64,000 nt of DNA from positions 124,001 to 188,000 of the forward strand of contig NC_005363.1 of the NCBI RefSeq assembly GCF_000196175.1. The letters run 5' to 3'. This document shows positions 5,832-58,929 of this stretch, one piece after another (the first letter of the stretch is position 1; every line of letters begins with the position of its first letter). The notes under the pieces were generated by a model. The model did not search any database. It saw only the letters and a program-made list of their open reading frames with translations, and had not been told where the DNA came from. Source of the DNA: Bdellovibrio bacteriovorus HD100 (GTDB lineage Bacteria > Bdellovibrionota > Bdellovibrionia > Bdellovibrionales > Bdellovibrionaceae). The position numbers were made by a program, and so were the translations under genes.

Positions 5832-6944
5832 TTACTCTGACAAAAGCCCGTCGGGAATCTGGCCATTGGCGATCGCGGAGGCGATCTTCAGGTGTTCCGG
5901 ACTGCCGATGATCTTGATTGCTTCTTCCAATGGCAGCGGGTCAGGATTCTGAATCTTTACTTTTTTAAAGTCCATGATGCGATGATAGCTGGCTTCAAGA
6001 TCCTCTTTCTTCAGGGACCCTTGCGCCAATGCACCCAGAATGGCGTCGTAAGCCTGCGGCGGAACTTCTGGATCGTTACAATAAAGCAGCAGATCCACAC
6101 CGGCCTTCAGGGCCCGCACGGGAACCTCTTCAATGCCATAGTGTTTGGTCATGGCTTTCATACCCAGATCATCGGTGATGATCAGGCCACGATAGCGCAT
6201 CTCTTCACGAATCATTTTTCTTACGAATGTCTCGGACAAAGTCACCGGCCATTCAGGATCAATTTTCGGAAACTTGATGTGCGAGGTCATGACCATGTCC
6301 ACGCGGGATTTGAAGGTCTTTTTAAACGGAATCAGCTCGCAGGACTCCAGGCGCTCCAGATCAGTGTTTTCAACCGGCAGGTCTTCGTGGCTGTCGACGA
6401 TGGTGTTTCCATGTCCTGGGAAGTGCTTCGCACAAGTGATGACATCGGATTTGATGTATCCGCGAACCAGGGCAGAAGCGTGTTTTGCCACCATCTCGGG
6501 ATCAGAACTGATGGAACGGTCGCCAATGACGGTGTTGCCGGGATTGGTGAAGATATCCACACAAGGGGCAAAATCCAGATTGATGCCCACGGCTTTCATT
6601 TCAAGACCCATGCGGTTGGCAAAGTGGAAGGACACGGTCGGAGCATCCAGGTCGCCCAGTTTTCTGAGAGGTGGCCACACGGTGAACGGGGCCTTCAGGC
6701 GGTGAACACGGCCCCCTTCCATGTCGATACCAATAAACAGCGGAGCCTTGTCGACTTGTTTGTGGCGCAGGGACTGGATCTCGGCGCACAGCTCGCGCAC
6801 TTGTTTGGGTTCAGCGACGTTCCGGCCAAACAGGCACACACCACCAATATTATTTTCTACAATGAACTTCTTTTCGTCAGCGGTGAGGGCGTGACCTGAT
6901 ACGCCGATGAACATGTGCTGACCGATGATATGACTGATACTCAT
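5832..6944 (-). CDS. nagZ: Beta-N-acetylglucosaminidase NagZ (GH3)
   Basis: A 370-residue GH3 enzyme with no signal peptide, so cytoplasmic. It carries the family hallmark KHFPGHGNTIVDSHEDLP near residue 175, including the DSH loop with the general acid/base His. The nucleophile Asp is expected in LIITDDLGMKAM near residue 255. NagZ removes the non-reducing GlcNAc from GlcNAc-anhydroMurNAc muropeptides during wall recycling. With amgK, murU and namZ found at 12.8-16.0 kb, it completes a plausible murein-sugar salvage set. It is longer than the E. coli enzyme (about 340 residues) mainly at the C terminus. Confidence 0.92.
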   Translation of the reverse strand: MSISHIIGQHMFIGVSGHALTADEKKFIVENNIGGVCLFGRNVAEPKQVRELCAEIQSLRHKQVDKAPLFIGIDMEGGRVHRLKAPFTVWPPLRKLGDLDAPTVSFHFANRMGLEMKAVGINLDFAPCVDIFTNPGNTVIGDRSISSDPEMVAKHASALVRGYIKSDVITCAKHFPGHGNTIVDSHEDLPVENTDLERLESCELIPFKKTFKSRVDMVMTSHIKFPKIDPEWPVTLSETFVRKMIREEMRYRGLIITDDLGMKAMTKHYGIEEVPVRALKAGVDLLLYCNDPEVPPQAYDAILGALAQGSLKKEDLEASYHRIMDFKKVKIQNPDPLPLEEAIKIIGSPEHLKIASAIANGQIPDGLLSE

Positions 6945-6947
6945 GAA

Positions 6948-7826
6948 CTAGTTCCCTTTTTTCTCTGTTTCCGGTTGAGCTTTGATGATGATTCCCTGTC
7001 CCTGTGGGACGCCCATTTGCTTGCTCGGAGCTGGGGCGTTGGCTTCCGCTGCTTTCAGCTTGGCATTGCGGGAGACGACATTGGCGTCGCCGGCAGGAAC
7101 CTTGCCGAATAAAGTTTTTAGCAGAGAGGCGCTATAAGGGATGTTTCCAATGGCTTCGGACGGATTTGCCACAAGTTCTGTGACGATGCCCTGGCCCATG
7201 GCGTTTGTGCCCAGGACTTCGCCACGTTCATTGACGTAGCTTAGGAATTTGATGTCTTTGAAGGTGTTCAGAATCTTGAAGGACTTAAAGCCGTTAAAGA
7301 TCTCTTCTTTTCCGACCAGGGCTTGACCCTTGTAGATGGCGCCGTCTTCTTCCGCGATGGCCTGATATTCATAGTTGGTTTCTGATTTCAGGCCTTCTTT
7401 GGATTTCAACATCAGATACACCAGGAACGTTGAAAGGAAGGTTCCTTTAGGGATCTTCTTTTCGATGCGGGAAACTTTGTTGCCGTTTTTAATCACGCCC
7501 GTCAGGGTGCCACCTTTGAACTTGGCGTCGATGATCTTGGATTCTTTGCCGGCCAAAGAGGTGTATTCATAGGAAATCGGTGTCAGGTCGGCATCCGCAT
7601 AGGCCTTCAGGCTTTCGGTGGTTTCGCTGGGACCTTTTCCGGTTTTCAGGAAGTAGGTGGAGATGAACTGCTTCTTTTTGGCGTCGAATTCATAACGGCT
7701 GATCACATATCCAATGTGTTCTTCACCGGAAAGGACCTTGGCGTAGCCTTCAAACAGCACGTCCGCCTGCGCAGGCAGTGTGAAAGCAAGTGACAGCAAA
7801 ATTGTCAGACAAACTCGTTGGACCAT
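6948..7826 (-). CDS. Secreted periplasmic protein of unknown function
   Basis: About 292 residues. I chose the ATG at 7826, which is preceded by a good ribosome-binding site (GGGAG) and opens with a signal peptide (VQRVCLTILLSLAFTLPAQA). The upstream in-frame ATG would add 19 residues before it. The mature part is predicted beta-rich (FEGYAKVLSGEEHIGYVISRY, then TYFLKTG). The C-terminal region carries GEVLGTNAMGQGIVTEL and a Pro/Ala/Lys-rich tail. I do not recognise the family. nagZ begins 3 bases downstream, so the two are probably cotranscribed, suggesting an envelope job. Confidence 0.75.
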   Translation of the reverse strand: MVQRVCLTILLSLAFTLPAQADVLFEGYAKVLSGEEHIGYVISRYEFDAKKKQFISTYFLKTGKGPSETTESLKAYADADLTPISYEYTSLAGKESKIIDAKFKGGTLTGVIKNGNKVSRIEKKIPKGTFLSTFLVYLMLKSKEGLKSETNYEYQAIAEEDGAIYKGQALVGKEEIFNGFKSFKILNTFKDIKFLSYVNERGEVLGTNAMGQGIVTELVANPSEAIGNIPYSASLLKTLFGKVPAGDANVVSRNAKLKAAEANAPAPSKQMGVPQGQGIIIKAQPETEKKGN

Positions 7827-7948
7827 CGTCGAGTTCTCCCTTCCGAGGCATGGATAAAAGTCTGTCATCTCACTATAGAACAAGTCAAAGTTTTAGAGGT
7901 CGAGTTGTTGCTTCATGAGACAACCTACGAGACAATGCTGGGATACAG

Positions 7949-10168
7949 ATGTTGAACTCACGAAGCACTTTTATTCAGAATCTTAACAACAAGCGGGGGC
8001 AAATCGCCCTGTTCGTGGCGTTGATCTTTCAGATTCTTTTCCTGTTCTTTGCGATGGTCATCAACGTCGGTCTTTTGGTTCACCATAAAATCAATCTGCA
8101 AAACTCCGTCGATCTGGCCGCCTATTACGGCGCGATGAAACAGGCCGAGGGCATGAACGTGATTGCGCACACGAACTATCAGATTCGTCAGAGCTGGAAA
8201 CTGCTTGCCTGGCGGTATCGCATGCTGGGGACTGCCGGGGATTTCGAGGAGCATCCCTTCGATAAGGTGGGTGGTGGACGTATTCGTACAACCGATGACG
8301 ACAGTATCAATCCTGGAGCACAGAATTTTTACGACTCCCCATCCTTCTGTATCACTTATATTCCATTTAAGCCGATGCCAGATGGAGAAAATACCTGCAA
8401 AGCTTTGTCTTCGCATACAGGAATTAATGTATTTAAAATTCCGCCTGTGTTGATCGATTTGCCGAGTGTTTCGGGAAGAACTCGAAGTCTTGCCTTGAAT
8501 CTTCGTGCTAGTTTGATTGAGCGTTGTAAAGATTTTGGATCTTTTAACTATCTCATGCTGGGTGGATTCGTTGTTGCCTTCAATATCGATCAAGGCAATC
8601 GGGCGCTTTTGATTTCCTATCTGTCCAAGGCTATGAGTCCTAGTTCCCCTGATGCGGATTTCTTTGATATTGACGGCAAGAGCGTCAAGTTGGGTATGGA
8701 AAATACCCTTAAAAACAATCTGACTGCTGCTAACAATACGTCCGATTTAAAAATGAGTATCTATAATTCATTGGGGCACTCGGCCTGCAATGGGTCTCAA
8801 GGTGCCAAGGGCGAGCCTGCTCGCTGGTTAAAGCAAATCAAGACTTATCCTGGATTCAGCTACATTGATACGATCTGTACTGAAACAAGTATTACACCTA
8901 AGCCGAAGATGCTTTCAAACGTTGAATCAGATCTTCCAAATGCGACAGTCGCAGATGGAAGATTCAGGACTGAAGTTGATGAACTGAAGAACTATATCGG
9001 CATCCGTGAGCCTATCAGCGATATCTATAACTACTCCATTGGGGTGGAAAAGAATCCGTGGTGTATGGCCTATGTAGGAGTTTCTGCATCGGCTCGCCCA
9101 AAGATTCCGTTTTCGCCCTTTGGTTCCTTGGAGATTAAAGCTCGAGCATTCTATAAGCCCTTCGGTGGTCGCATTGGTCCGTGGTATTACAACAAGTATC
9201 CGTCGGGCTCTGCTTCTTATAACGGATCACAAGGCAGTCCCAATGACAAAACGGATCCGAATCTGCCACCTCGTTTGATGGACCAAGCGCATGTTGGTGT
9301 GCCGGGGGATCCGACACGAATTGCAAATTACAGTCGTTATGTCGGCGATAAAGTCGGTTTGAAAAGTCGCCGGGTTCTTTATCATTATGGCAGAGCTATT
9401 TATAAGTTAGACCCTAACTGGGTAATTGGCTCGGACGGGAACGTTGAGCCGGGCAGTGCTCCGGTTAACTATGGAGATACGGCGCCTAACTTCGAGCATT
9501 GGAAGCACCTGCCATTTAATTTCTATCAACGTGGCGGGAATCAGGATTTGCTCGCTTGGGATCATGCTAATGATCAGCCATCGCGCATGCGTATGCTTGA
9601 GCTTTCGGCGATTCTTCCGGATCCATTCGATTTGACCTACTATTCAATTGAACCTGATTTCTATCACAACTATTACACACGCCTGCGTGATGGATTCCTG
9701 AAGACTATTGGTTCCGCTTACTATACCGAGAATAAAGAGTTCTTGGGTGATATTGGAACTCACAAAGGTTCCAATAAAGAGGGTATCAACTGGGATAAAT
9801 TCAGCGTCATCGATCAGTACAAAGCTGTTTCCGGAAATACATTTATGAAGACGTTCGTGGATATCGCAGGGAAACTGACTTATATCTCCACAAAATGGCA
9901 GGATGTTCTGACGTCCTGGGCGCCGGTGAGCCTTGTGGATTACAGTTTGGATCCAGCCAAGTTCGGCAAATGCACGATCACACCGAGAGGTGCTGATTCC
10001 GGTGAGCCTGAAGTGCCAAACCCAGGAAACTGCGTTTCGGGCGGAACAACGGGCTACTCTGTGAAGATGGTTTCGTCGGACTATCTTCGTCGTACTGATC
10101 TTGAGTTGGGCGGCACAGGGGTGCGTGGAGCACTGCTGAATCCTCCTCCTGAAGACAGCGAGTTCTAA
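7949..10168 (+). CDS. Tad-type (TadE/G-like) membrane-anchored surface protein
   Basis: 739 residues. The N terminus shows a Tad domain: RGQIALFVALIFQILFLFFA and its continuation form one long hydrophobic segment, and INLQNSVDLAAYYGA follows. This is the pattern of TadG and TadE-like pilus-assembly proteins. The remaining 680 or so residues are a large extracytoplasmic region rich in Tyr, Pro, Asn and Gly with scattered cysteines and no domain I recognise. No Tad ATPase, secretin or Flp prepilin gene lies nearby, so this may be a stand-alone surface protein. It heads a three-gene plus-strand cluster. The divergent promoter region carries two GAGACAA words 12 bases apart (7917-7923 and 7929-7935). 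Confidence 0.72.
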   Translation: MLNSRSTFIQNLNNKRGQIALFVALIFQILFLFFAMVINVGLLVHHKINLQNSVDLAAYYGAMKQAEGMNVIAHTNYQIRQSWKLLAWRYRMLGTAGDFEEHPFDKVGGGRIRTTDDDSINPGAQNFYDSPSFCITYIPFKPMPDGENTCKALSSHTGINVFKIPPVLIDLPSVSGRTRSLALNLRASLIERCKDFGSFNYLMLGGFVVAFNIDQGNRALLISYLSKAMSPSSPDADFFDIDGKSVKLGMENTLKNNLTAANNTSDLKMSIYNSLGHSACNGSQGAKGEPARWLKQIKTYPGFSYIDTICTETSITPKPKMLSNVESDLPNATVADGRFRTEVDELKNYIGIREPISDIYNYSIGVEKNPWCMAYVGVSASARPKIPFSPFGSLEIKARAFYKPFGGRIGPWYYNKYPSGSASYNGSQGSPNDKTDPNLPPRLMDQAHVGVPGDPTRIANYSRYVGDKVGLKSRRVLYHYGRAIYKLDPNWVIGSDGNVEPGSAPVNYGDTAPNFEHWKHLPFNFYQRGGNQDLLAWDHANDQPSRMRMLELSAILPDPFDLTYYSIEPDFYHNYYTRLRDGFLKTIGSAYYTENKEFLGDIGTHKGSNKEGINWDKFSVIDQYKAVSGNTFMKTFVDIAGKLTYISTKWQDVLTSWAPVSLVDYSLDPAKFGKCTITPRGADSGEPEVPNPGNCVSGGTTGYSVKMVSSDYLRRTDLELGGTGVRGALLNPPPEDSEF

Positions 10169-10262
10169 ACAGATTTCATCTGAGCGTCTCATTCTAATAC
10201 AAGACCTAAAAACTTAAGAAACTCTGACTTTTGTCCGAAAAGGATATGGTAGGGGAAATTTT

Positions 10263-11723
10263 ATGCGTAGTTTGAAGACAAGTCTTCTTTCAGGCCTAAT
10301 TGCATTGTCGTTCACTGCTTCGCTCGCTCATGCAGAAGGGGCTGGTGGGAGTACCACTCCCGCTGCCGCCTCTGGGGCGGCAAAAGATGCGCGTACCGAG
10401 GTATCCGATGAAGGTTATACTGAAAAGCCTGGTGAGTTTAAGGCCGAAATTACTAAGTTGGAAACGGCATTAAATGCCGCCGAATCATTGGGTGGTGCTC
10501 CCGGCGTAGCAGCTTTTAAGGATCTGAGCCAGGCTACGTCATTTTACTCTAATCTGCATGGGACCTGTGTAAAGACTCAATCTACAGCATCTTGGTTGTG
10601 TCGAGAAAAGACGAGTCCTGAGCTTCAAAAGACACTAAACAATATTAATACCGTAGCGAGTATGATTACCGGAGTTGCCGTGCAAGATGCTTGTAGCAAT
10701 CTCGCAAAGATCGCACGCCTAGCTCAAGGTGGTTTGACTGCATATACCGCAGCCTGTTCTTCTGCTCGTGCAGCTTGTGAGGCATCTTGTTCAACGGTTG
10801 CAACAAATCTTGAGCGAATTGTGAAGACAGATTTAAATGCCATTGCTTGTAAAACTAGAACCCTGGAAAATACGACTGCTTGTAATAGTCTGGATACTCA
10901 GTTGAATGCTGTTTCTGCGAAGATTAAGGATCTCGCGGCTACAGATAACTCAAAAGCAGATAATAAATCCATTGCGAAAAAGAATGTCGCTTGTACTTAT
11001 GAATACGCGAACATGATCGTATCTGCCGGTGCGGGTATTGCTTCCATGATTTCTTCCTTCAAACAAGGTCAGCAGTGTGACGAGGAGTCTAACGGTACTG
11101 GCACTGACACTACGACAACCGCTGCTGTTGACAAGTGTGCTGATGCGACTGTCGCGGCCAATGATCCAGAGTGTATCTGTAAAGCAAATCCAAGAACTCC
11201 GGGTTGCTCCAATTCCTATCAAAAAGCCAATGACGGGACGACGTCTCGCCTGGCTTCCCAAGGCGCAGAGCTAGGCACAGCAAATGGCAAAGGTGACGCA
11301 AGCACCCTTCCAGGCATTGAAAGTGATCCGTTTGCAGCTTTGCGTGACCTTGCCTCCACCAATGCGGGTGGCGGTGATTCCTCTGGTGCCGGTGCGCCTA
11401 TGGGCGGTGGCAGTGGCTTGAGTGGCTTTGGTGGTGGCAGCGGCGGTGGAGCCGGCGCCCAGGGCGAAGCTGCGAAAAAAGGTCTGAACACTGATATTCT
11501 CGGCGGCGCCGGTGGCGGCGGTGGTGGGGGTGGTTTCGGAGGCTTTAAAGGCTCTGACTCCAAACTGCGCCAGTACCTGCCAGGTGGAGCGAAAGATCCA
11601 TCTCAAGGATTGGCAGGTCAGCAGGCTTGGAAAAATGAAGTAACCGGCCAGGGTGGTAAATCCAACTGGGAAAAGATCAAAGAACGCTACCGCGACAACA
11701 AGAACACTCTTTTGAATAACTAG
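10263..11723 (+). CDS. Secreted Ala/Cys-rich protein with Gly-rich C-terminal region
   Basis: 486 residues. A signal peptide (MRSLKTSLLSGLIALSFTASLAHA) is followed by three regions. Residues 25-265 are an Ala-rich, probably helical segment with many Cys residues (for example SSARAACEASCSTVATN), suggesting disulfides. A Thr/Cys-rich linker follows. Residues 360-440 are strongly Gly-rich, with an uninterrupted run of nine Gly. The start follows an AGGGGAAATTTT ribosome-binding region. I recognise no family. It lies between the Tad-like gene and another secreted Gly-rich protein gene, only 8 bases before the latter, so the three probably act together at the cell surface. Confidence 0.72.
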   Translation: MRSLKTSLLSGLIALSFTASLAHAEGAGGSTTPAAASGAAKDARTEVSDEGYTEKPGEFKAEITKLETALNAAESLGGAPGVAAFKDLSQATSFYSNLHGTCVKTQSTASWLCREKTSPELQKTLNNINTVASMITGVAVQDACSNLAKIARLAQGGLTAYTAACSSARAACEASCSTVATNLERIVKTDLNAIACKTRTLENTTACNSLDTQLNAVSAKIKDLAATDNSKADNKSIAKKNVACTYEYANMIVSAGAGIASMISSFKQGQQCDEESNGTGTDTTTTAAVDKCADATVAANDPECICKANPRTPGCSNSYQKANDGTTSRLASQGAELGTANGKGDASTLPGIESDPFAALRDLASTNAGGGDSSGAGAPMGGGSGLSGFGGGSGGGAGAQGEAAKKGLNTDILGGAGGGGGGGGFGGFKGSDSKLRQYLPGGAKDPSQGLAGQQAWKNEVTGQGGKSNWEKIKERYRDNKNTLLNN

Positions 11724-11731
11724 GGGAAGCT

Positions 11732-12742
11732 ATGACAAATTTAACAATCAGGTTCGTTTGTATATTGTCGTTGATATGGTCTCCAGTTATGGCGGGCGCA
11801 GTCACTGTCAGTGGCGGCAGCACTTCCACAACGACACCTAAGACTACGCCTGACAAAGGGGTTGAGTCCACTCCGGGTAAAACCGCTCAGCCATCGGTGA
11901 AAGACTCTGCTGATAAGTCTGGAAGTTCAAATAAAGGCGCTCAGGCGACTCAGTTCCTTACTGGGGCATTGATGTTTACTATGGCGGCTGAAAAGTGGGG
12001 CGAATGCTCCAGTCAAAACTATGGCGCATGTGCGATGGCTGCGATCTTCACGGGATTTGGCGTTCTCTCCATGGCTCAGGGTAAGGAGCACGGAAAGGCA
12101 GCGGGATCTTCAGGACTAACATCCTTTCAATCAGACGGTTTGGGCAATGCATATGATTACGGGAATATCGATCTGACTGATCCAAATAATCCACTATCAA
12201 AAGATCCGAATGTGAAGGCTTTGGGAACGAATACCGGAAAGCTGACCACTGGCGGATTGCTTGATCCCAAAACAGGAATCATCAAAACTCCGGACGGCAA
12301 AACTTACAAGGCTTCTGACTTTTCATCGGCTGCTTCCATGGCTGCTGCTGGGATCCCTCAAGGTGCGATCCTGGCTGCACAAGATGCCTACGCTCAGGTT
12401 TCCAAAAAATCCGCAGATAAAGTTGAGAAGCTAAAACTGGGTTCCATGACAGCAACCAACGGCTTCAGTGAAGGCGGTGGCGGTGGTGGTGGTGGCTGGG
12501 GCCCGGCTTCTCCAACTGATGATGGTTCCGGCAGTGACTATGCTGGCACAGGCGGTTCTGGTTCCAGTGGCGTTAGCCTGGAGCGTGACCCTTCAAGTCT
12601 TGCAGGCATGCAAAAGAACTATAACGGTGAGCCGATCGGTGTTGCCGCTGACAGTATCTTCCTGATGATGACCCGCAGATACAAAGTCAAAGAAAGCCAA
12701 GAGTCTTTCTATACTGATGCTGAACTGGCTTTGCAGAAGTAA
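11732..12742 (+). CDS. Secreted protein with Gly-rich tract, unknown function
   Basis: 336 residues with an N-terminal signal sequence (ILSLIWSPVMAGA), then a Thr/Ser/Pro-rich stretch and a short hydrophobic region (ATQFLTGALMFTMAAEKW) near residue 75. The middle resembles a repeat-poor globular domain with DPKTGIIKTPDGKTYKASDF. A poly-Gly tract follows near residue 250, then Ser/Gly-rich sequence. A GGGGAAGC ribosome-binding site precedes the ATG. It has the same overall plan as the preceding gene product and ends just before a strong bidirectional terminator, closing the cluster. Function unknown. Confidence 0.7.
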   Translation: MTNLTIRFVCILSLIWSPVMAGAVTVSGGSTSTTTPKTTPDKGVESTPGKTAQPSVKDSADKSGSSNKGAQATQFLTGALMFTMAAEKWGECSSQNYGACAMAAIFTGFGVLSMAQGKEHGKAAGSSGLTSFQSDGLGNAYDYGNIDLTDPNNPLSKDPNVKALGTNTGKLTTGGLLDPKTGIIKTPDGKTYKASDFSSAASMAAAGIPQGAILAAQDAYAQVSKKSADKVEKLKLGSMTATNGFSEGGGGGGGGWGPASPTDDGSGSDYAGTGGSGSSGVSLERDPSSLAGMQKNYNGEPIGVAADSIFLMMTRRYKVKESQESFYTDAELALQK

Positions 12743-12761: not shown

Positions 12762-12790
12762 AAAAAGGGTGCTGTTGCCAGCACCCTTTT
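12762..12790. terminator. Bidirectional intrinsic terminator
   Basis: Poly-A, the stem GGGTGCTG, a short TTGC loop, CAGCACCC and then poly-T. It lies between the convergent Gly-rich protein gene and namZ, and has T-runs on both sides so it can serve both strands. Confidence 0.85.
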
Positions 12791-12795
12791 TGTTT

Positions 12796-13989
12796 TTAAT
12801 AAAGCAGGTATTTCTTTCTTTCCTTCACCCAGGGTTTTTCATCCTTGGCCAATGCCGCATCCAGATCTTTTGGAGTGGCCTTTGGATTTTCGATCCAGTT
12901 CTTCAGCGCTGGTCCGCCGTTAATCACATCAAATGCCAAGCGGTCCTTCACATACTCATAGGCAAAATCGCGATAAATCGGGTACTTCGGATGCATCTCG
13001 CGGATCACCTTCAGCATCAGCGCAGTCAAACGGAATGGTTTGAACTGATCGTGCTTGTAGCTGACACCGTCCGTGTGGAACTGGAAGCCATGGCAAAGCT
13101 TGCCCACATGCTTGTGGAAAGTTGGCTCAAAGAAGCATTCACGCAAGGTCACACCCTTAAACCACTGAGGTGCTTTCTTTTTCATGCGAACCAGAACTTC
13201 CGCATAATCAATATCCGAAGCGCCGATGATCTCAAGGGCGCGAGTGGTTCCGCGTGCTTCCGAAAGGGTGGTGCCTTCAATCAACACGGTTCCAGAATAA
13301 GCGCGCGCCATGTTCAAAGAGGCCGCGTTCGGCGACGGATTCACCCAAGGGCGTTTCAAGTCCCAGCCAAAGCCCGGCCCCTTGTCAGGATTGTAGCCTT
13401 TCATCTTCACGATTTGCAGATCCAGATCCATTTTGTAGTAGTCAGCAAAATACAAAGCCAGCTCACCCACGGTCAGACCGTGGCGCATAGGGATCGGGGC
13501 TGCACCCACAAAGGATTCCCAGCCTGGAAGCATCTTGAATCCTTCCACCGGTCGGCCCGCAGGGTTGGGACGATCCAAAACGATGACGGTCTTTCCAAGT
13601 TTTGCGGACTCTTCCATAATGTACAAAAGCGTGGTGATGAAGGTGTAAATGCGGCAGCCCAGATCCTGAAGATCAAACAACACCACATCGAAGTGGGACA
13701 TCATCTCTGCCGTTGGACGGCGAACTTCGCCATACAGACTGAACACCGGAATCTTGTGCACAGGATCCACAAAGTCCGGGCTTTCGATCATGTTGTCTTG
13801 TTTGTCGCCACGGACGCCGTGCTGGGGGCCGAACGCGCAAGAAAGTTTAATCTTTTTGGAAAGCAAATCCATGCTGTGCTGAAGATTTTCATCCACGCTG
13901 GCCGGGTGACAGACTAGGCCCACACGTTTGCCCTTAAGGCTTTTTAGCATCTTTGGATTTGCGAGAAGTACTTCCAGACCGAGTTTCAT
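12796..13989 (-). CDS. namZ: Exo-beta-N-acetylmuramidase NamZ-like (GH171, DUF1343)
   Basis: 397 residues of the DUF1343 family, now GH171, whose characterised member NamZ cleaves terminal MurNAc from MurNAc-GlcNAc. Visible family motifs are GLVCHPASVD near residue 25, FGPQHGVRGDKQDNM near residue 55, VPVFSLYGE-like PVFSLYGEVRRPT and FDLQDLGCRIYTFI near residue 105. Also present are VLDRPNPAGRPVEG and PMRHGLTVGELA. There is no signal peptide, so the enzyme is predicted cytoplasmic, unlike secreted NamZ. It is the last gene after amgK and murU, 12 bases below murU, and would release free MurNAc, the substrate of AmgK. Confidence 0.85.
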   Translation of the reverse strand: MKLGLEVLLANPKMLKSLKGKRVGLVCHPASVDENLQHSMDLLSKKIKLSCAFGPQHGVRGDKQDNMIESPDFVDPVHKIPVFSLYGEVRRPTAEMMSHFDVVLFDLQDLGCRIYTFITTLLYIMEESAKLGKTVIVLDRPNPAGRPVEGFKMLPGWESFVGAAPIPMRHGLTVGELALYFADYYKMDLDLQIVKMKGYNPDKGPGFGWDLKRPWVNPSPNAASLNMARAYSGTVLIEGTTLSEARGTTRALEIIGASDIDYAEVLVRMKKKAPQWFKGVTLRECFFEPTFHKHVGKLCHGFQFHTDGVSYKHDQFKPFRLTALMLKVIREMHPKYPIYRDFAYEYVKDRLAFDVINGGPALKNWIENPKATPKDLDAALAKDEKPWVKERKKYLLY

Positions 13990-14001
13990 AAATATCCTTA
14001 T

Positions 14002-14991
14002 TTACAGAAAGAGAGTGTCTTTGGCTTGAGTGCCAGCAGGGACCCGGGCATTTGTTCCGACGATGACATTGGTCAGTTCGCAGCCGTTTTCCACAATAGC
14101 TCCGGGGCCGGCGCAGAAAGTTCCGTGAATTCGGGAATGACCCAAAAACGCAGATTTTGAAATCAGGCTGTAGCCGCCATCTGTGGAGGCCAATACGGTT
14201 TCTTCTTTGGAGTATCTTTTTAAAGTGCCTTCCAGGATGGCCTTCTGATAAGTCGCCGGGCCCGCCAGATAGTGCAGGCATTTTTCAGAAGCCTCCAGAA
14301 AGTCCGTTGGATTTCCGGTTTCAAACCACGTGCACTCAAACGGATAGGCTTCGACAGAAAGACCTTTTTTGATCGCCGCAGTCAAAGCATCATAAAGAAT
14401 ATTCGATTCACCTTTGGCTGGGATGAAATCAAACACTTTGTCAGAAAGAATCTGCACGCCCACAAAGTGCCAGGCTTTCACGGCCCCGGCGATCGGGGTC
14501 TTGCCAAAGCCCAGCACGCGGTTGTGAGCATCTGTCCAGACACCGCCAAACTTGGTTCCCACATCCGGGTGATCCATCACCATCAAAGTGGCGACATTGC
14601 GCTGATGGCGGTGATGCAGGATCGCTTTTTTCATAACATCAGACTCTTTGGGAAGAATGATTTCATCGGCATTCATCATGACGAACGAATCATCGCCCAT
14701 AAAGTGATCGCGGGCTTTCCCCAGGCCGCCGCCGCTGCCAAGAATCTGTCCAACTTCATCAGAAAAATGCAAAGACTTCGCGTGATGGCGCAGGCTGTGG
14801 AAAAGGTGGTGGATTTCGCCAGGCAAGTGATAGGTGTTCACCACCAGCTTGTTGATGGCAAGATTTCCCAGAAAGCTCAGGGAGTGTCCGGCCAAAGGAA
14901 CCGTGACAAACGGAATGGCTGGCTTTGGAAGTGTCAGCGTGTAGGGGCGAAGTCTTGTGCCTTCACCCGCCGCCAGCAACATCACGTTCAT
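14002..14991 (-). CDS. murU: Nucleotidyltransferase, probable MurNAc-1-phosphate uridylyltransferase
   Basis: 329 residues. The N-terminal sugar-nucleotidyltransferase signature is MLLAAGEGTRLRPYTLTLPK (GxGxRxxPxT...PK), followed by the substrate-pocket stretches ILGSGGGLGKA and MMNADEI. A C-terminal region with LLISKSAFLGHS-like and AIVENGCELTNVIVG repeats looks like a left-handed beta-helix. Known MurU proteins are about 225 residues and lack this part, so this form is extended. Its start overlaps the amgK stop by four bases. MurU makes UDP-MurNAc from MurNAc-1-phosphate. The assignment rests on the amgK pairing; a GDP-mannose or dTDP-glucose pyrophosphorylase-like role is the alternative. 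Confidence 0.75.
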   Translation of the reverse strand: MNVMLLAAGEGTRLRPYTLTLPKPAIPFVTVPLAGHSLSFLGNLAINKLVVNTYHLPGEIHHLFHSLRHHAKSLHFSDEVGQILGSGGGLGKARDHFMGDDSFVMMNADEIILPKESDVMKKAILHHRHQRNVATLMVMDHPDVGTKFGGVWTDAHNRVLGFGKTPIAGAVKAWHFVGVQILSDKVFDFIPAKGESNILYDALTAAIKKGLSVEAYPFECTWFETGNPTDFLEASEKCLHYLAGPATYQKAILEGTLKRYSKEETVLASTDGGYSLISKSAFLGHSRIHGTFCAGPGAIVENGCELTNVIVGTNARVPAGTQAKDTLFL

Positions 14992-16007
14992 AAAGATTCG
15001 TACTTTCTTTCCAGAGCACCGGAATCAATCAGGACATCAGCAAAGACTTTGTATTCCGGGAACTCGTTGATGGCTTTCATCACACGACGAAGAGTTCCGG
15101 AAAGGTACTTCAGATAACGACGGTCTTGGCGCAGGTGATAGAAGCTGGCAAAGCTTCCACAGGCTTTAAAACAGCGCTGGATGGATTGCAGTTCATAGAT
15201 ACGGTCAAACTGCTCACGCGAGAAATCTTTTGGCAAATAGGCTTTGGATCTTTCCAGATAGTAGTCAATCAGTGTGCGTGCCATGGAATCATTCATGTCC
15301 ACGTATGAGTCCCGCATCAGGCTGACCAGGTCATACTGAATCGGACCCAGTCGGGCATCCTGGAAGTCAATCACGCTCATCTGATCCAGTTTGATCATCA
15401 GGTTGCGGGAATGATAATCACGGTGAGCGATGCGTTTTGGTTCCTTGTCCAGACGGCTGGAGATATCCACAAAGATATCCGTGATTTCTTTGTTTAAAGA
15501 TTCGCCGAAGGGGAATTTCAAAACACCGGAAAGCAGATTGTCCTTGCCGTAGTTCATCTCCCACAGGAATTTTTCGGTGTTGAATTCGATCTTGAAAGCG
15601 GTGCAGTCAGATTTGTCCAAAGTAGCCGGATGGTGGATCTTTACGATCTCGTCCACGGCCATCTGGTAGAACTCCAAAGAAGCTTCCTGGCTTTGGCTTT
15701 CCCAGAATTTTCTTTCCAGGGTCAGGTCACCCAGGTCTTCCAGCAGCATCAGTCCTTCTTGCGGGGACTGAGCCACGACTGTGGGTACATGCACACCATT
15801 TTTGGCAAAATGATTCAGCACGCTCAGGAAGGGGTAGTTGTTGGGATCATAGGGCTCCCAGCGCATCAGCACCCAGGACTGATTGTCCTGCACCACGCGA
15901 TAGTAACGGCGGTTGGAGGCGTCTCCGGCCAAGGAAAAGACCTTGTAGTTGTCGGAGCTCAAAGCTTTTGTCAAAAATGGAACTAGGAATTCATCGTGAG
16001 TGACCAT
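14988..16007 (-). CDS. amgK: Aminoglycoside-phosphotransferase family sugar kinase, probable AmgK
   Basis: About 339 residues of the APH-like kinase fold. Visible are the N-terminal FSLAGDASNRRYYRV (glycine-loop equivalent), the catalytic loop IAHRDYHSRNLM (HxDxxxxN type) and the metal-binding IDFQDARLGP. These features, together with a directly overlapping murU-type gene, are those of AmgK, the anomeric MurNAc/GlcNAc 1-kinase of the cell-wall recycling shortcut. I start at the ATG at 16007 (MVTHDEFL); a GTG at 16028 would add seven residues and has no ribosome-binding site. First gene of amgK-murU-namZ. Confidence 0.78.
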   Translation of the reverse strand: MVTHDEFLVPFLTKALSSDNYKVFSLAGDASNRRYYRVVQDNQSWVLMRWEPYDPNNYPFLSVLNHFAKNGVHVPTVVAQSPQEGLMLLEDLGDLTLERKFWESQSQEASLEFYQMAVDEIVKIHHPATLDKSDCTAFKIEFNTEKFLWEMNYGKDNLLSGVLKFPFGESLNKEITDIFVDISSRLDKEPKRIAHRDYHSRNLMIKLDQMSVIDFQDARLGPIQYDLVSLMRDSYVDMNDSMARTLIDYYLERSKAYLPKDFSREQFDRIYELQSIQRCFKACGSFASFYHLRQDRRYLKYLSGTLRRVMKAINEFPEYKVFADVLIDSGALERKYESL

Positions 16008-16063
16008 AAGAAAAATTCTCACAGACACTCACGGCATTATCAAGGATAAATCAGACGGGAAAA

Positions 16064-27463: not shown

Positions 27464-28855
27464 CTACTTTCTGCCCGTTTTGGAGCCGGAGCTGCGGGAA
27501 CGTTTCGAGGACCCTTTCGCAGCATCACCCAGGTGACACTGAGCCGCCAGTTCAGAGTTGGACTCAACTGTGGTCTTCACATCCTCAATAATCTCGGTTT
27601 GCGCGGAGATTTCACTGGAAGCTTCTTCTGAAGTGTACTCAGCACCACGTTTTGGCGCAGGACCCAAAGTCATCAAACCGTTGTTCGCCCGGTTCAAGGC
27701 CTCGGTGTAGCTTTGCTGTTTAGTGGCCAGGGCTTTGAGTTTGGTCTGCATGTTTTCCTGAGCGGCCTGCATCTTGTTCTGAGTCAGGGTCATCAGATCT
27801 GTGACCTTCTTTTCAGCCTGAGATTTTCTTTTTGTTGTGTCGGCTTTCATCTGATCCAGCTGATTCGATGCCAGATTCAGAGAATCATTCAGTTCATCTG
27901 TGCTGGCTTCAGCATTGCGGATCTGATCGTTGATGGATTCCATCTTTGCCGTGCTCTGTTCGTTCAAGGAAATACGCGCTTGTTGGAAGCGGTTCATACA
28001 TTTATTAAAGGCATCAAGCGCCGCAGCCTTTTGTGCTTTGGCTTTGGAAATGTGATTACCACTGGAAGAAGCGTTCACCTTCCCGTAGGCTTCTGCCGCT
28101 TTGGTGTATTCCTGATTGCAGGCAAATTTAGAAGTTTCTGCTGTCAGCTCCAGCATTTTTGTCGCTTTCTCGCGAACGGCATTGGTCATCTCAGAGCGCA
28201 GGGAGATAATTTTAGAATTGTACTCACGCAGTTTTTCCTTGGCAGCTGTCTGGCTGGCTTGGAATTCTGAGATCTTTTCACGCTCTTGTTCGTCCAATGA
28301 CGTTTTAGTCTCTTCCAGTTCCTGTTGGGCATCGGTCAGAGCCTGCTGCAGTTCCTGAATGGTCGTATTGAACGTTTCTTTGATTTCAGCCTCATCATCA
28401 GCCAGTTCGGCGATGTCCTTCTGGGTGTCTTTGATTTCCTGTTCAAGACGTTTCTTTTCGTCATAATAGTCACGACCATTCATCTGAGGGCAGGAACCAC
28501 CGATGTTCGATCCTGCCGGAAGGCCCATCAATGTACCGATAGCGTCGGTCGTGTCAAAGCTGTCGGTGCCCAAAGTTTCTGAACACGCCTGGGCTTTTTC
28601 AGCACAGCCAGAACCCATTCCCGCTTTGCGGCAGGCTTCAGCAATTTTATTCTTAGCTGCTGTGATCTCGCTTCGTGCCTGAGAACACTGCGACTGCAGG
28701 CGAGCCGCTTTACTTTCTGCGATCTCTTCTTGGGACTTGGTAAAGCTAAGTCCTTCAGCCAAGGAAACGGAAGGGGTTGCCAATGAAAGCACGCTCAGGA
28801 TGTTGATAACTGTTTTGACAGATGCATTCTTTTTAGAGCTTGAAATCTTATTCAT
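27464..28855 (-). CDS. Secreted coiled-coil protein with Cys-rich head, unknown function
   Basis: About 463 residues. I start at the ATG at 28855, preceded by GGGAGG; the longest frame adds 22 residues. A signal peptide ends near LATPSVSLA. Residues 35-110 hold six or so Cys (QCSQARSEITAAKNKIAEAC begins this part). Residues 115-400 are a long heptad-rich coiled coil full of Glu, Gln, Lys and Ala. The last 60 residues are Ser/Arg/Lys-rich with one Cys. It may be a periplasmic structural protein. The Cys-rich, Ala-rich style recalls the secreted protein at 10.3 kb but no clear homology is visible. Confidence 0.72.
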   Translation of the reverse strand: MNKISSSKKNASVKTVINILSVLSLATPSVSLAEGLSFTKSQEEIAESKAARLQSQCSQARSEITAAKNKIAEACRKAGMGSGCAEKAQACSETLGTDSFDTTDAIGTLMGLPAGSNIGGSCPQMNGRDYYDEKKRLEQEIKDTQKDIAELADDEAEIKETFNTTIQELQQALTDAQQELEETKTSLDEQEREKISEFQASQTAAKEKLREYNSKIISLRSEMTNAVREKATKMLELTAETSKFACNQEYTKAAEAYGKVNASSSGNHISKAKAQKAAALDAFNKCMNRFQQARISLNEQSTAKMESINDQIRNAEASTDELNDSLNLASNQLDQMKADTTKRKSQAEKKVTDLMTLTQNKMQAAQENMQTKLKALATKQQSYTEALNRANNGLMTLGPAPKRGAEYTSEEASSEISAQTEIIEDVKTTVESNSELAAQCHLGDAAKGSSKRSRSSGSKTGRK

Positions 28856-28980
28856 TTGATTTCCTCCCCGATGATAATGAGTGGTGCAATACCAGTACCA
28901 ATTATCGGCAGACCTGCCCAAAAGGTTTACGTCTCAGAGTGAGATTTCGGTCAAAGCCAGTACAGGCGGGGAAAGAAAAT

Positions 28981-54480: not shown

Positions 54481-56426
54481 ATGACTGTGCCTCCTTTTTT
54501 GATTCTGTAAGTTGCATTGGTGTTCATCTGGGATGCCGTTTTATTGTAAGCGTTGATTTTTACGTTCAGCAGGTAGTAGCCAGCAGACAGTCCACTGGTG
54601 CTGATGGACTCGGTGGCGCCCACGGTTTCAGAACGGCTCTGTTTGACGATATAGTCAGAGGAATATCCGCCATACCAATAGGCGTCTTCAAAGTACACAT
54701 AGTCCTTTTTGTACAGAATAAGATCCAGATTCAGCTTTGTGCTTGAATACTCCAGCGACAGAGTGGTGCTGTTGCCATCGTGATAGTACAGATAGAAGTC
54801 GTTATTCACCTGCTGATCCGAGCGTTTGACGCTGTCTCTGGCCGTCATCAGTTGTTCTTCTTTTCCGACAGTGAAGGTGATATCAGAACAGGTGGTTTCG
54901 CCCAGATAGAAAGCATAGTCCTTGGTGGTCTTGCTTTGCTTTTCTTCAGCAAGGATCGCGTCCCATTTTGCTGTCGCACCAGCCACGTTGCGGGACAGTA
55001 GATTGTTAAACAGACCTACACTTGGAATGGGATAGACGGAGGTGTTGACCAGACTGGTGGTGACCGGATTGGATTTTTTGTGCCCGGCAGTGTCTTCCCC
55101 AGCGAAGGTCATCCACACTTTTGAGAAGTCCATGCCTCCGCCGAATTTGGTGCTTTCATACTCGGCCATGTCATCGCGAGTGGCTTTGTAAAGCGCGCGC
55201 GATACGGACACTTCACGGAAAGTCCCCGTGCCGGCAAGATCCGCTGAAGTGTTGTCATAGCTTGCCGCAGTTCCATCCTGCCACAGGTTGAAGGAAATAC
55301 TGACCCCGGCCGTGTTTCCTGAGGCGCGGTAGCCATAGGTGTCCACATAGTAGTGATAACGGGGATCTGTCGGTGCTCGATTTTCATCAGCGTTGTTATA
55401 GGCGGCATCCGCTCCACTTAAGACGGCGGCCTGGAAATAGTTGGCCCAGCCTTCACTCCAGGAAAGTCTGGCATCGATGACGAAGTTCCCTGTGTGGGAT
55501 CCTCCCGGAGATCCGGAATTGCCGTAGACGTCTTCCAGGAAGTGAGCGTATTCATGCAGGATCACGGAGTCATCAAAGTGGTCAGTGTCAGAAGACTTCA
55601 CGTCGCCGTTCACGCCCCCCAGGATGTAGAGCTTGCGTTCCCCCGGGGAATAGAACGACAGGGGAGAGTTGGAGCCGAAGTAAGAGTATGGATTGAATCC
55701 GGCCTTCCAGAAGACGGTCACTTTTTCGGCCACCCACCAGAGGTTGGTGTTGGTGGAAGGAATACCGCCATTGTTTTTGCCAATGTTGCGGCGGATGTAT
55801 TCGTTCGCCAGCAGGATGTTGTACATGATGTTGAAGGCGCCACCTTCGATGCGAGATGACGTGCTTTCGTTGGCCTCGGCGTAAACCGGGGAAGAAGTCA
55901 GATCCAGCGTGCCTGTGGTGATATCACCCGCCGTGATAGAGAATGATTTCGCCGCATAGTGAGGGGTGTTGGCATAAATGTCGGCCAGGATGCTGACTTT
56001 CAGATAGTCATTATAAGCCCGCGAGAAGACTTTGAAAGTGTAGGTGCCAGCGGTTTTTGGAATCTTAAAGGTCGCAATGCCATCGGTGTCGGTTTCACCC
56101 TGTTGGATGCGGGTGCCGGAGGTGTCATAGATATGGAACTCTGCAAAGGAGATTGGAACGGCATCGCCAGTTGCGACCACATTGGTCAGTCCGTTGGTAG
56201 AGCTGCCGGGAGTGAAGCTCAGGCCGCGATAAAGGAACTTTGTCGGAAGTGTGACAGTGACGGACTGGGCGGCATCCATTTCGGTGGGTTTGCCGTAATA
56301 GGTCGGCTCAGGAGAGGCGGGGGCATTGGATGAGAAGTCGCCGCCTTCAAGGCCGCCACCACCACAAGCTGTCAGAATGAGAGTCCACGCGCTGATAAAA
56401 CCAGCCATCATCCGGTTCAAAGTCAT
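54462..56426 (-). CDS. Lipoprotein with HExxH metallopeptidase-like domain
   Basis: 654 residues. The lipobox LILTACGGGG marks a lipoprotein. Domains in order: a carboxypeptidase-regulatory-like beta domain near residues 75-150 (IYDTSGTRIQQGETDTDGIA), a peptidase-like domain and a C-terminal beta domain resembling the bacterial pre-peptidase type (SAGYYLLNVKINAY). The peptidase-like domain has the zinc motif VILHEYAHFLED near residue 289 and a possible third ligand Glu in SWSEGWANYF. The HExxH plus distant Glu pattern is that of gluzincins. Surface or periplasmic location is predicted. Confidence 0.78.
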   Translation of the reverse strand: MTLNRMMAGFISAWTLILTACGGGGLEGGDFSSNAPASPEPTYYGKPTEMDAAQSVTVTLPTKFLYRGLSFTPGSSTNGLTNVVATGDAVPISFAEFHIYDTSGTRIQQGETDTDGIATFKIPKTAGTYTFKVFSRAYNDYLKVSILADIYANTPHYAAKSFSITAGDITTGTLDLTSSPVYAEANESTSSRIEGGAFNIMYNILLANEYIRRNIGKNNGGIPSTNTNLWWVAEKVTVFWKAGFNPYSYFGSNSPLSFYSPGERKLYILGGVNGDVKSSDTDHFDDSVILHEYAHFLEDVYGNSGSPGGSHTGNFVIDARLSWSEGWANYFQAAVLSGADAAYNNADENRAPTDPRYHYYVDTYGYRASGNTAGVSISFNLWQDGTAASYDNTSADLAGTGTFREVSVSRALYKATRDDMAEYESTKFGGGMDFSKVWMTFAGEDTAGHKKSNPVTTSLVNTSVYPIPSVGLFNNLLSRNVAGATAKWDAILAEEKQSKTTKDYAFYLGETTCSDITFTVGKEEQLMTARDSVKRSDQQVNNDFYLYYHDGNSTTLSLEYSSTKLNLDLILYKKDYVYFEDAYWYGGYSSDYIVKQSRSETVGATESISTSGLSAGYYLLNVKINAYNKTASQMNTNATYRIKKGGTVICGTER

Positions 56427-56505
56427 GTAGATCTTATCGGATTTACGGGGGGTGGGCTGAACGCGGGAAAGCCCTATTTCTTAATCGAAATTATTGAGGA
56501 AATGA

Positions 56506-56560
56506 CGAAGTTTTTTGCAGGACTGTCTCGGCTTGAGACAAATAAAAAAAGGCTCGAAGA
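56506..56560. repeat. 55-bp direct repeat, copy 1
   Basis: Identical over 55 bases to 58875-58929. The unit begins with CGAAG and ends with CGAAGA. It contains GTCTCGGCTTGAGAC, a 5-bp stem with a 5-base loop, set between TTTTTT and AAAAAAA arms that could extend the hairpin. It lies just past the KAP NTPase stop. Confidence 0.92.
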
Positions 56561-56583
56561 AACTAAGTCACCTTTACCTTAAT

Positions 56584-58836
56584 TTAAACTTTAAGAAAGG
56601 ATTTAATCACTCTTATTACATTCAGATATTTCCCATTATTAACTTCAATTAATCGGGTAACTAACGAGTGTTGAGAGTCGCTGGTCATTCGCATAAATCT
56701 TGCTGTATTTATGTAGTCGTCATTGCTATTGAAACCATTAATTTCAAGGTATTTTTCCAACAAATTGTCCAGTTGCGCTTCATTTAAGATTGATGTTCTT
56801 GCAATATGCATGTGGTCTAAATATTGCCGAAGGAGTCCGCTTTCATTTTCAAGTATCTCGAAGTAATTTTGATCTAGAGATAGTACCTCCTCATATGAAA
56901 AGTTGGGAAGAGAAGCGAAGAGGTTTGCTTTGATAGTTTCGAATTCAACTGGATAATCTGGTTTGTATACGCGTTTAAAAAGGAGCATGGACATAATTGA
57001 TACTTTTAGTTCACCTGTCCATGCAACCTTTGCGCGGGCGCTTAAATACCCATTTATCCAGCTCTTAAAAATTCCGGTGGAGGATATAGCTTCGCGAAGA
57101 GAATGATAGATCCATTCAGTGTTTCCATCCTTTTCATGACAGATCTTCTTCATTGTTAATGCAACAAATGATGGATGTAGACTCCTATCGATTGCCTGAA
57201 CTATTCCGATGAAGTTTGAGCTTAGTTGATCTGCGGTTAGATAATTGAATGAATAGCTAGGTATTTCTTGATGGTGAGAGTATGGATTATCCTTAAGTCC
57301 ATCAATGATCATTTTGAGACCTTCCCATGAAATTGCATTTGGGGGGGATTTGTCCATTTGATAGATTGGGGTATAAATGGGATTTATCATTTTAAATAGA
57401 TGATGTCTATTTTCGCCGTTTGAAAGCTCGGAAACTAATGTGAATGCTGCATGTGTTTGGTTTCCATAGATGCTTTGATATAGAGCGACGAACTTATCTT
57501 CGTCGCCTGGCATAGGTTCAAACATGTCTAAATAAATTTTTGGGAACCGTGTCTTTAAAATTGTTATCTTTATGGCCTCTTGAAGGTGGATCTTGTGTGC
57601 TCCGAACTTGAGGAGTGAGTGCAGGGAGATGGCAAATTGCTTTAAGTCGCGATAATTATTCAGAAGATAGTAATATTCGCTTTCAAAATTGGTCTTGGAA
57701 ATTTCAGTAAGGTAGTGTTCCATGCCTTCTTGCTCAAGCACTCTCATGATATACTGTTTTGCTTGATTGTTGGACTGATTGTAGTCCAGCGCATGTACAT
57801 GAAGTTCGTAGTCTATGTATTTTGCAAAGAAAGAGCTATGTCCGTGAGAAGAATCATGCAATAAGCTCTCAATTCGAACTCTGTCGTATAAAACAATTTG
57901 CTTAATTTTTGGAACGCCAGCGATTTTTCCAATTAAACGTAATGCGACGACGACCTCTTCAGGTTTTAGCCTGTCGAGATCGTCATATATAATTACGTAC
58001 ATATCATCTGATGACTCTAGGTGATTTGATAAAAGTTTTTTTGTAGCAATCTGACTATCGGAGTTTGTTACTAGTTGTACAACTGAAGACAATATGTTTG
58101 GGGTTGATGAAAGCATCGACTCAAAGACAGCCTTTGTAAAAATATTTGGATTCTCGCCAAAGAATATCGACAAATATTTTTCTCTTAGTTCTTCGACAAG
58201 TGACTCGGAGCTGAAGTAGTTTGAAGAGTCAATGTGAGTGATTTTGTACCGGCGGTCCTTTTCTAAGGTGGAGACTAAAGAGTGGATTAGAGAAGTTTTC
58301 CCTATGCCCCACGGTCCAGATATTCCAATAGTTGAAAGTTTGTTGTTTTCGTGCACTACCTTCAAGAGAAAGTCTTCCTTTTCTCCCGCATCTTTACTTA
58401 GACCTTCGGTGATCTCGAAAGGCCGTAGGTCAAATATTGATTCAAGTCCGAAGTTTTCAATTTTTTGGGGTGCTTTTCCGCTCTTCCAGTTAATGGAGGC
58501 AATCATTCCTAATACTGTGGATACCATTCCAATTAGGTAGACAATTTCTTTATGTTGAGAGGGTGGGGACGTGTATAGGTCGACAACAAGCATTAAGTTG
58601 GAAAGAAAGTAGGTGAAGCCATTGGCTATAAGGGACTTGGTATTTTGAGAGAACGTAAATACCTGATATGTGAGGCAAAAGCACAGCACTGACCAACTCG
58701 ATATACTTAAAAGTCTAAGCGCTAAGCTCAATTCCTTTGTTGCGTCTACGAACAGTGACAGGCCGTATAGTATTGCAAAGCTGGCCAGCAGGGACTTTAG
58801 TAAGGAGGTTGAGTGTTTTTGTAGAAATGGGACCAT
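56584..58836 (-). CDS. KAP-family P-loop NTPase with N-terminal membrane helices
   Basis: 750 residues. Four hydrophobic helices lie within residues 10-118 (for example LLASFAILYGLSLFV and LIGMVSTVLGMIASINW). A KAP-type P-loop domain follows, with Walker A GISGPWGIGKTSLIHSL near residue 174 and Walker B MYVIIYDDLDRLKPEEV near residue 283. The last 350 residues are helical with no known motif. KAP NTPases are membrane-linked STAND-like ATPases, patchily spread and found in phage-defence settings. The gene is AT-rich (two sampled 60-base lines gave 38% and 42% GC, against 60% in a line of xseA) and is bounded by perfect 55-bp repeats, so recent gain is likely. No clear ribosome-binding site. 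Confidence 0.85.
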   Translation of the reverse strand: MVPFLQKHSTSLLKSLLASFAILYGLSLFVDATKELSLALRLLSISSWSVLCFCLTYQVFTFSQNTKSLIANGFTYFLSNLMLVVDLYTSPPSQHKEIVYLIGMVSTVLGMIASINWKSGKAPQKIENFGLESIFDLRPFEITEGLSKDAGEKEDFLLKVVHENNKLSTIGISGPWGIGKTSLIHSLVSTLEKDRRYKITHIDSSNYFSSESLVEELREKYLSIFFGENPNIFTKAVFESMLSSTPNILSSVVQLVTNSDSQIATKKLLSNHLESSDDMYVIIYDDLDRLKPEEVVVALRLIGKIAGVPKIKQIVLYDRVRIESLLHDSSHGHSSFFAKYIDYELHVHALDYNQSNNQAKQYIMRVLEQEGMEHYLTEISKTNFESEYYYLLNNYRDLKQFAISLHSLLKFGAHKIHLQEAIKITILKTRFPKIYLDMFEPMPGDEDKFVALYQSIYGNQTHAAFTLVSELSNGENRHHLFKMINPIYTPIYQMDKSPPNAISWEGLKMIIDGLKDNPYSHHQEIPSYSFNYLTADQLSSNFIGIVQAIDRSLHPSFVALTMKKICHEKDGNTEWIYHSLREAISSTGIFKSWINGYLSARAKVAWTGELKVSIMSMLLFKRVYKPDYPVEFETIKANLFASLPNFSYEEVLSLDQNYFEILENESGLLRQYLDHMHIARTSILNEAQLDNLLEKYLEINGFNSNDDYINTARFMRMTSDSQHSLVTRLIEVNNGKYLNVIRVIKSFLKV

Positions 58837-58874
58837 GCTAGGACTATCGGATATAAACTTAAACTAATTAAGTG

Positions 58875-58929
58875 CGAAGTTTTTTGCAGGACTGTCTCGG
58901 CTTGAGACAAATAAAAAAAGGCTCGAAGA
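58875..58929. repeat. 55-bp direct repeat, copy 2
   Basis: Perfect copy of 56506-56560, lying 38 bases above the KAP NTPase start. The two copies are 2,369 bases apart and enclose only that gene. Confidence 0.92.

Follow-up and report, generated by a model that had tools for sequence, protein, structure and literature searches.

A three-gene cluster of Bdellovibrio bacteriovorus HD100 encodes a putative Tad pilus tip protein and two apparently secreted Gly-rich proteins with a common C-terminal module

Introduction

Tip proteins of pilus-like systems include GspK, the tip-most subunit of the type II secretion system (T2SS), which lacks Glu5, and PilY1, an adhesin of type IVa pili that is loaded on minor pilins. 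Closer to the subject of this study are the Tip complexes of the Kil (Tad-like) pilus of Myxococcus xanthus, of which the component KilN4 is described as having an N-terminal pilin helix, two long helices, and a beta scaffold, without a homologue in the PDB (PMC12075869; this and all other papers are cited from excerpts of their text). Here, we analyze a cluster of three genes (genes 1 to 3) of Bdellovibrio bacteriovorus HD100, located in a window of 64,000 nucleotides that corresponds to genome bases 124001 to 188000 of a single contig of 3,782,950 bases. Coordinates are positions in this window unless given as genome positions or within a numbered locus, and G and L numbers are our handles for genomes and loci. 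On balance, we lean toward a reading in which gene 1 encodes a Tad-tip protein and genes 2 and 3 encode prey-contacting partners tagged by a common C-terminal module. Prey recognition and grip by Bdellovibrio are a long-standing question, for which this cluster offers a specific three-gene unit.

Results

The first-pass annotation of the region, made from the sequence alone, had described a protein with a Tad N terminus followed by two secreted Gly-rich proteins. The three open reading frames (ORFs) indeed lie at 7949 to 10168 (gene 1; genome position 131.9 kb; 739 amino acids, aa), 10263 to 11723 (gene 2; 486 aa), and 11732 to 12742 (gene 3; 336 aa), all on the forward strand, with gaps of 94 bases between genes 1 and 2 and of 8 bases between genes 2 and 3. 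The Tad similarity of gene 1 is genuine, since it survived a profile search: Pfam family PF13400 matches residues 17 to 63 (7997 to 8137, forward strand) with an E value of 1.5e-8 and 35.3 bits, above the cutoff of 22.3, and this was the sole PF13400 match found in the genome. A TadE match was weaker (14.8 bits) and below its cutoff. Within this N-terminal helix, Gly17 is invariant in the 30 sequences compared, and the residue at +5 after this Gly is Phe and not Glu. A residue other than Glu at this position is typical of TadG and also of tip subunits of the GspK type.

An AlphaFold2 model of gene 1 computed from the 30 sequences (mean predicted local distance difference test score [pLDDT], 83.3; predicted template modeling score, 0.85) consists of an 81-residue N-terminal helix (residues 15 to 95) and a second long helix (172 to 229), followed by strands and small helices, with strands at 268 to 405. 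Five Cys residues (134, 150, 193, 675, and 695) are invariant across the same sequences. The ectodomain, which the first-pass annotation had called unknown, matches no Pfam family. Comparison of the model with the PDB by Foldseek and VIA-align returned no match at E ≤ 0.001 (best Z score, 6.0; root mean square deviation [rmsd], 4.2; 103 residues aligned), which is not proof of a new fold, and a PDB sequence search gave no match up to an E value of 1. The single NCBIfam match was far below its cutoff, and a plasmid search for gene 1 came back empty. Gene 1 looks like a large minor pilin of the TadG/KilN type that would sit at the tip of a Tad pilus, the main locus of which lies ∼30 kb away.

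Genes 2 and 3 look secreted, as had been proposed: both products have N termini that we judged by eye to be signal peptide-like, and both carry poly-Gly tracts. Gene 2 is Cys rich, with 14 Cys residues, 13 of which are invariant in a 28-sequence alignment (the exception being C196); gene 3 has 3. In the AlphaFold2 model of gene 2 (mean pLDDT, 62), confidently predicted helices at residues ∼41 to 120 and 151 to 250 form a helical bundle, followed by a disordered Gly-rich linker (318 to 432) and a C-terminal helix (468 to 484) of low confidence. Against the PDB, this model retrieved only generic helical bundles (best Z score, 10.4; rmsd, 5.2; 172 residues aligned), and the two matches of a PDB sequence search (E values of 0.0017 and 0.014) both fell within the linker. 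NCBIfam assigned neither gene to a family, and no Tad, TadE, or Flp match was found in either by Pfam up to an E value of 1. We also considered genes 1 to 3 as a three-pilin Tip of the KilLMN type. Because neither partner is pilin-like by Pfam, and gene 2 models as a helical bundle plus linker, such a Tip is unsupported in the strict sense.

Genes 2 and 3 end alike, together with three tandem genes for secreted, Cys-rich proteins located elsewhere in the genome (locus L034, 6114 to 10574; genome positions 488.1 to 492.6 kb). The common tail spans ∼50 residues and follows the pattern LPGGxxDPxxxxAG...G...N/S-I/N-[WF]-x-x-[IMV]-x-x-R-Y. A profile (A1) built from 27 tails, with the five HD100 tails included, matched these five at E values of ≤1.8e-14 and no sixth HD100 protein up to an E value of 10 (32 candidates scored), so that five module proteins are counted in HD100. 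The module lies at 11559 to 11717 (forward strand) in gene 2 (PGGxxDP...SNWEKIKERY; E value of 2.1e-24, with its own tail in the profile) and at 12578 to 12700 (forward strand) in gene 3 (DPxxLAG...SIFLMMTRRY; E value of 1.8e-14, likewise with its own tail in the profile). The relationship between gene 2 and the tandem genes extends to their bodies (hhalign probability, 99.4; E value, 1.9e-21); gene 3 shares the tail only. The tandem genes lie between genes that resemble, by eye, those for glutathione peroxidase and aspartokinase, and genome G005 (L036) has four tandem copies in the same setting.

For gene 3, the module assignment depends on intermediate sequences. When gene 3 was left out of the profile, the tails of its orthologues in L044 (E value of 2.9e-6), L049 (4.6e-4), L205 (0.03), and L067 (0.05) were the top foreign matches among 1675 ORFs, with the matches ending 0 to 13 residues from the C terminus. 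The L044 tail was also found, at 7.5e-5, by a profile made from just the tandem genes. Pfam matched no known C-terminal sorting domain, such as Por_Secre_tail, in the gene 2 or gene 3 tail up to an E value of 1 or in 28 gene 3 homologues up to 0.01, an absence that is not proof. The module looks like an attachment tag. Among the 368 genomes of the phylum, it was matched in 165, comprising 125 of the 143 within the class and 40 of the 225 outside. The latter matches are all weak (best E value, 3.8e-6; at the 0.01 limit, chance alone would give ∼2 across the 225 genomes), and the module is nearly confined to the class Bdellovibrionia. Genomes of the genus have 3 to 11 matches each, with 11 in the relative G017. 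A lipoprotein-like ORF of 291 aa near gene 1 in a locus outside the class (L201, 720 to 1595, reverse strand) carries a module-like ESIFKVVERRYRT near its end (E value of 0.025 with the gene 3 tail profile), which may be due to chance.

A further view, compatible with the reading that we lean toward, is that nothing here is new: gene 1 would simply be the Bdellovibrio Tip of Fig. 7b in PMC12075869, and genes 2 and 3 would be secreted accessory proteins of an ordinary kind. A B. bacteriovorus Tip was proposed in that 2025 paper from a structure search, and gene 1 as such may therefore not be new. The excerpted text of the same paper is silent on Gly-rich partners and on a C-terminal module, giving the Tip gene numbers in a figure only, and our searches of open papers brought up no account of the module or of the cluster. 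We regard this view as possible yet somewhat doubtful.

The three genes are usually neighbors in relatives; rare adjacency would, by the first-pass annotation, have spoken against the cluster. We searched 59 genomes, HD100 included, of which 36 are relatives from the same family. Gene 1 was found in all 59. For gene 2, 41 genomes gave a match, a count that includes paralogues, and gene 3 was found in 52. Coordinates placed the triple side by side and in order in 29/36 family relatives, and four more (G003, G004, G013, and G036) are cut at contig ends. Among more distant relatives, the arrangement varies: the order is kept in L043, L046, and L050; in L044, genes 2 and 3 are convergent with gene 1, and in L037/L038 and L039/L040, gene 3 is located elsewhere. 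The triple occurs even in another order of the class (L204 and L205; L206 is cut by a contig end). L035, L059, and L062 (genomes G005, G006, and G020) hold additional gene 2 and gene 3 copies, paired or single, that have no gene 1 adjoining them. Two overlapping ORFs make up gene 1 in genome G023 (L053, 6309 to 8572), a split that may reflect a sequencing error or a genuine break.

In the phylum as a whole, gene 1 was matched in 329 of the 368 genomes (134/143 within the class and 195/225 outside), most genomes outside the class giving two partial matches, to the N- and C-terminal parts, at E values of roughly 1e-20 to 1e-40. Of seven loci outside the class in which the context of gene 1 was read, L209 had no ORF matching gene 1 and was dropped. 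A search of named contigs with two short peptide patterns of the gene 1 family, which cannot show absence elsewhere, yielded 93 loci, of which 80 were kept. These are labeled as Bdellovibrio and relatives, Bdellovibrionota, Oligoflexia, Proteobacteria, or unnamed bacterium; one metagenome-assembled genome labeled Streptomyces griseus is probably mislabeled.

Published genetics can be connected to the cluster through gene numbers. Bd0152 is called a muramidase (PMC11656739), and the gene downstream of the cluster, a NamZ exo-muramidase gene by Pfam (12796 to 13989, reverse strand), fits Bd0152. A c.767G>T mutation (G256V) of Bd0149 is reported in two biofilm-forming host-independent strains that also bear other mutations (PMC11323537), and codon 256 of gene 2 is GGT, which fits this exchange. 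Because of these two fits, and because a FliA-like site precedes gene 2, genes 1 to 3 are most likely Bd0148, Bd0149, and Bd0150. Other assignments of Bd0149 fared worse: in gene 1, the first 120 codons offer 11 possible starts, and none of them puts Gly at position 256; the codon fits in the NamZ gene, but this gene is Bd0152; and it fits in gene 3 only with two internal starts.

With this numbering, the literature indicates that gene 3 is needed for attachment and that gene 2 has a FliA-type promoter active in the attack phase. A transposon mutant of Bd0150 showed no prey attachment, killing, or rounding (PMC6561027, Table 2) and was placed in class I, the same class as the tadC::tn (Bd0470) mutant (PMC6561027). 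At least one secreted partner thus seems to be needed to grab prey. A further ORF of the window (27464 to 28921, reverse strand; 485 aa), which has no Pfam match above cutoff, would by gene count be Bd0161, another validated attachment-null gene in that study. The ∼100-bp promoter Pbd0149 contains a FliA motif and is active in the attack phase (PMC12622784).

The corresponding promoter-like site, TAAG-N15-TCCGAAAA, is located at 10215 to 10241 (forward strand), upstream of gene 2. The sigma-28-like pattern that identified it was composed after sight of the sequence, and its frequency in the window (2 sites with ≤1 mismatch, versus 4.1 expected) is not rarer than chance. The site scores 10/12 on this pattern, as does the region of the published FliA-dependent flp1 promoter, and 74 of 2000 random stretches of the same genome score ≥10. 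The strict pattern is found in 11 of the 14 gaps between genes 1 and 2 within the genus, the other 3 keeping GTCCGAAAAG without TAAG, and in none of the five gaps from other genera of the family. Support for the site as promoter-like comes from this conservation in the genus together with the published motif. Since genes 2 and 3 have their own promoter-like site, the cluster probably comprises at least two transcription units.

Alternatively, the products of genes 2 and 3 could belong to a surface coat and need no Tad pilus to reach the outer membrane; the module would then serve as an outer-membrane anchor or as a sorting signal for another exporter, and gene 1 would be a neighbor through shared regulation. 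Such an arrangement would fit the separate promoter-like site of the gene 2-gene 3 unit, the gene 2/3-like pairs and singles away from gene 1 (L035, L059, L062, L038, and L040), and the three-gene array at 488 to 492.6 kb, which is likewise distant from gene 1. It accords less well with the conservation of the triple in most family relatives and in another order of the class, or with a published Bd0150 phenotype that equals that of tadC (PMC6561027). We consider this alternative unlikely.

Tad machinery is present in HD100. As noted in the first-pass annotation, no Tad machinery genes adjoin the cluster by Pfam; the main Tad locus, with the genes for the ATPase, the secretin, and the pilins, is at genome positions 98.9 to 106.3 kb, ∼26 to 33 kb from gene 1, a distance that is commonly ∼250 kb in other Bdellovibrio. 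Locus L032 holds RcpC, a secretin, a protein of the TadZ-TadA fusion type, a T2SSF protein, and a Flp1-like pilin. A second T2SSF protein is in L072, and a TadC-like gene is at genome position 439.8 kb. In the literature, bd0109 to bd0119 are described as a Tad operon, with flp1 under FliA control (PMC5430801), and the Tad locus of HD100 is described as incomplete (PMC3539863). Our results suggest that the tip of this locus is encoded elsewhere in the genome. The fusion itself, in which TadZ-like and TadA-like parts are joined in one 739-aa protein (L032, 11757 to 13976, reverse strand), was matched at E values of ≤1e-20 in 365 of the 368 phylum genomes. Both it and gene 1 are nearly universal in the phylum, so that their co-occurrence is unusable as a test. 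Linkage of the two genes is not evidence either, because the distance between them ranges from ∼6 kb (G259) to >1 Mb (G006). A published inversion point in Bd0108 (97,049 to 97,051 in BX842601; PMC11323537) falls in a 101-aa gene of the same locus (L032, 8874 to 9179; genome positions 96,873 to 97,178).

The cluster lies within a conserved peptidoglycan-recycling neighborhood (NagZ-like, NamZ, MurU-like, and AmgK-like genes; 5832 to 6944 and 12796 to 16028). Upstream, on the reverse strand, are a conserved gene for a glycosyl hydrolase of family 3 (NagZ-like; 5832 to 6944), assigned by Pfam and by the loci of relatives, and a divergent conserved gene for a DUF3108-like protein (6948 to 7883). 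Throughout the family, these two flank the cluster on one side and MurU-like, AmgK-like, NamZ, or AnmK-like genes on the other, the DUF3108, MurU, and AmgK matches being below curated cutoffs and the AnmK-like gene being one that we presume from its sequence by eye. These neighbors would suit a role of the cluster in peptidoglycan recycling or envelope sensing, with gene 1 as a fixed envelope protein that uses its Tad helix as an anchor only. Outside the class, however, gene 1 stands instead beside pyruvate dehydrogenase subunit-like genes and a gene for an HD-domain protein (six loci, L198 to L203; named by eye), and both the long pilin-like helix with its invariant Gly17 and the attachment phenotype of gene 3 speak against such a role, which we consider very improbable.

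Closure of the cluster by a terminator, also part of the first-pass annotation, is borne out by a 13-pair stem followed by a T-run at 12762 to 12791 (forward strand), between the convergent gene 3 and NamZ gene. This is the strongest of five terminator-like sites, a count that is not above that of shuffled sequences (mean, 5.8). Farther along the window, a stretch of lower G+C content at 56000 to 59100 (0.41 at 56 to 58 kb) with a KAP-type NTPase gene (56584 to 58836) was possibly acquired.

Discussion

In the mechanism toward which we lean, gene 1 would cap a Tad (type IVb) pilus, with its N-terminal helix in the pilus and its ectodomain exposed at the tip. The products of genes 2 and 3 would be exported via Sec in the attack phase, each with a head of its own that a flexible Gly-rich linker joins to the shared C-terminal helix module. 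Through this module, both would most likely dock to the tip protein, or else to some other cell surface receptor that they have in common. The heads would touch the prey, and the assembly would make the first stable prey contact. The proposal of a self-contained surface structure or adhesin set therefore holds in part. A conserved surface or adhesin set fits the synteny, the signal peptide-like starts, and the attachment-null mutant (by our numbering). The set is probably not self-contained, with Tad pilus machinery encoded elsewhere, gene 1 being spread over the phylum also where genes 2 and 3 do not adjoin it, and genes 2 and 3 having a promoter-like site of their own.

Several observations weigh against a tagged pilus tip. 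In three of the 36 family relatives (G030, G031, and G033), the genes were not found together, and the six loci outside the class (L198 to L203) have gene 1 without a gene 2 or 3 match up to an E value of 0.05. Some class genomes have gene 1 and no module match, for example, the small genomes G237 to G240 and, in addition, G244, and the incomplete assemblies G201, G263, and G264 have the module without a gene 1 match. Compared directly by profile-profile alignment, the tails of genes 2 and 3 match weakly (probability of 7 to 8; P of ∼0.005), and the HD100 gene 3 tail itself was not significant against the gene 2 profile or the left-out profiles. In the reverse test, the gene 3 profile found one gene 2 relative (L043; E value of 0.04), ranking below an unrelated ORF (0.025). 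Furthermore, gene 1 has no Glu5, and Bdellovibrio reportedly does not possess the prepilin peptidase TadV (PMC5430801), which makes the maturation of gene 1 hard to explain. The five complemented mutants of PMC6561027 do not include Bd0150. Finally, the Bd numbers of genes 1 to 3, like the tip location, the docking by the module, and the physical association of the three proteins, are what we infer.

A broader idea, offered tentatively as a possibility, is that the Bdellovibrionia might have a dedicated prey-contact protein family, in which a Gly-rich tether links the individual head of each member to a common C-terminal helix tag and the tag serves for loading onto a TadG-type pilus tip, with lineages varying and multiplying the tagged heads of a modular tip. 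One member of the cluster has a published attachment-null mutant, provided that our numbering holds, and the short conserved tag is testable by truncation.

Among known systems, gene 1 may be likened in general terms to tip proteins of the GspK and PilY1 types, and the pilus class differs. The resemblance to TadG (PF13400) of classical Tad loci is closer, in that both have an N-terminal Tad domain without Glu5 and a very large ectodomain; in contrast to classical TadG, gene 1 of HD100 is not part of the tad operon, lying ∼30 kb away, and its ectodomain matches no Pfam family. The KilN/KilLMN Tip complexes of the M. xanthus Kil pilus share with the cluster a large TadG-type minor pilin, conserved Cys residues, and a role in predation (PMC12075869), and the predicted outline of gene 1 fits the description of KilN4, including the lack of relatives in the PDB. 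The partners differ from those of KilLMN: the HD100 proteins are not pilin-like by Pfam and instead resemble Gly-rich proteins secreted via Sec, with a C-terminal module that they have in common. Whereas Myxococcus has four tips, HD100 has one gene 1; the kil clusters do not include the genes for three of the Myxococcus tips (PMC12075869), just as the tad locus does not include gene 1.

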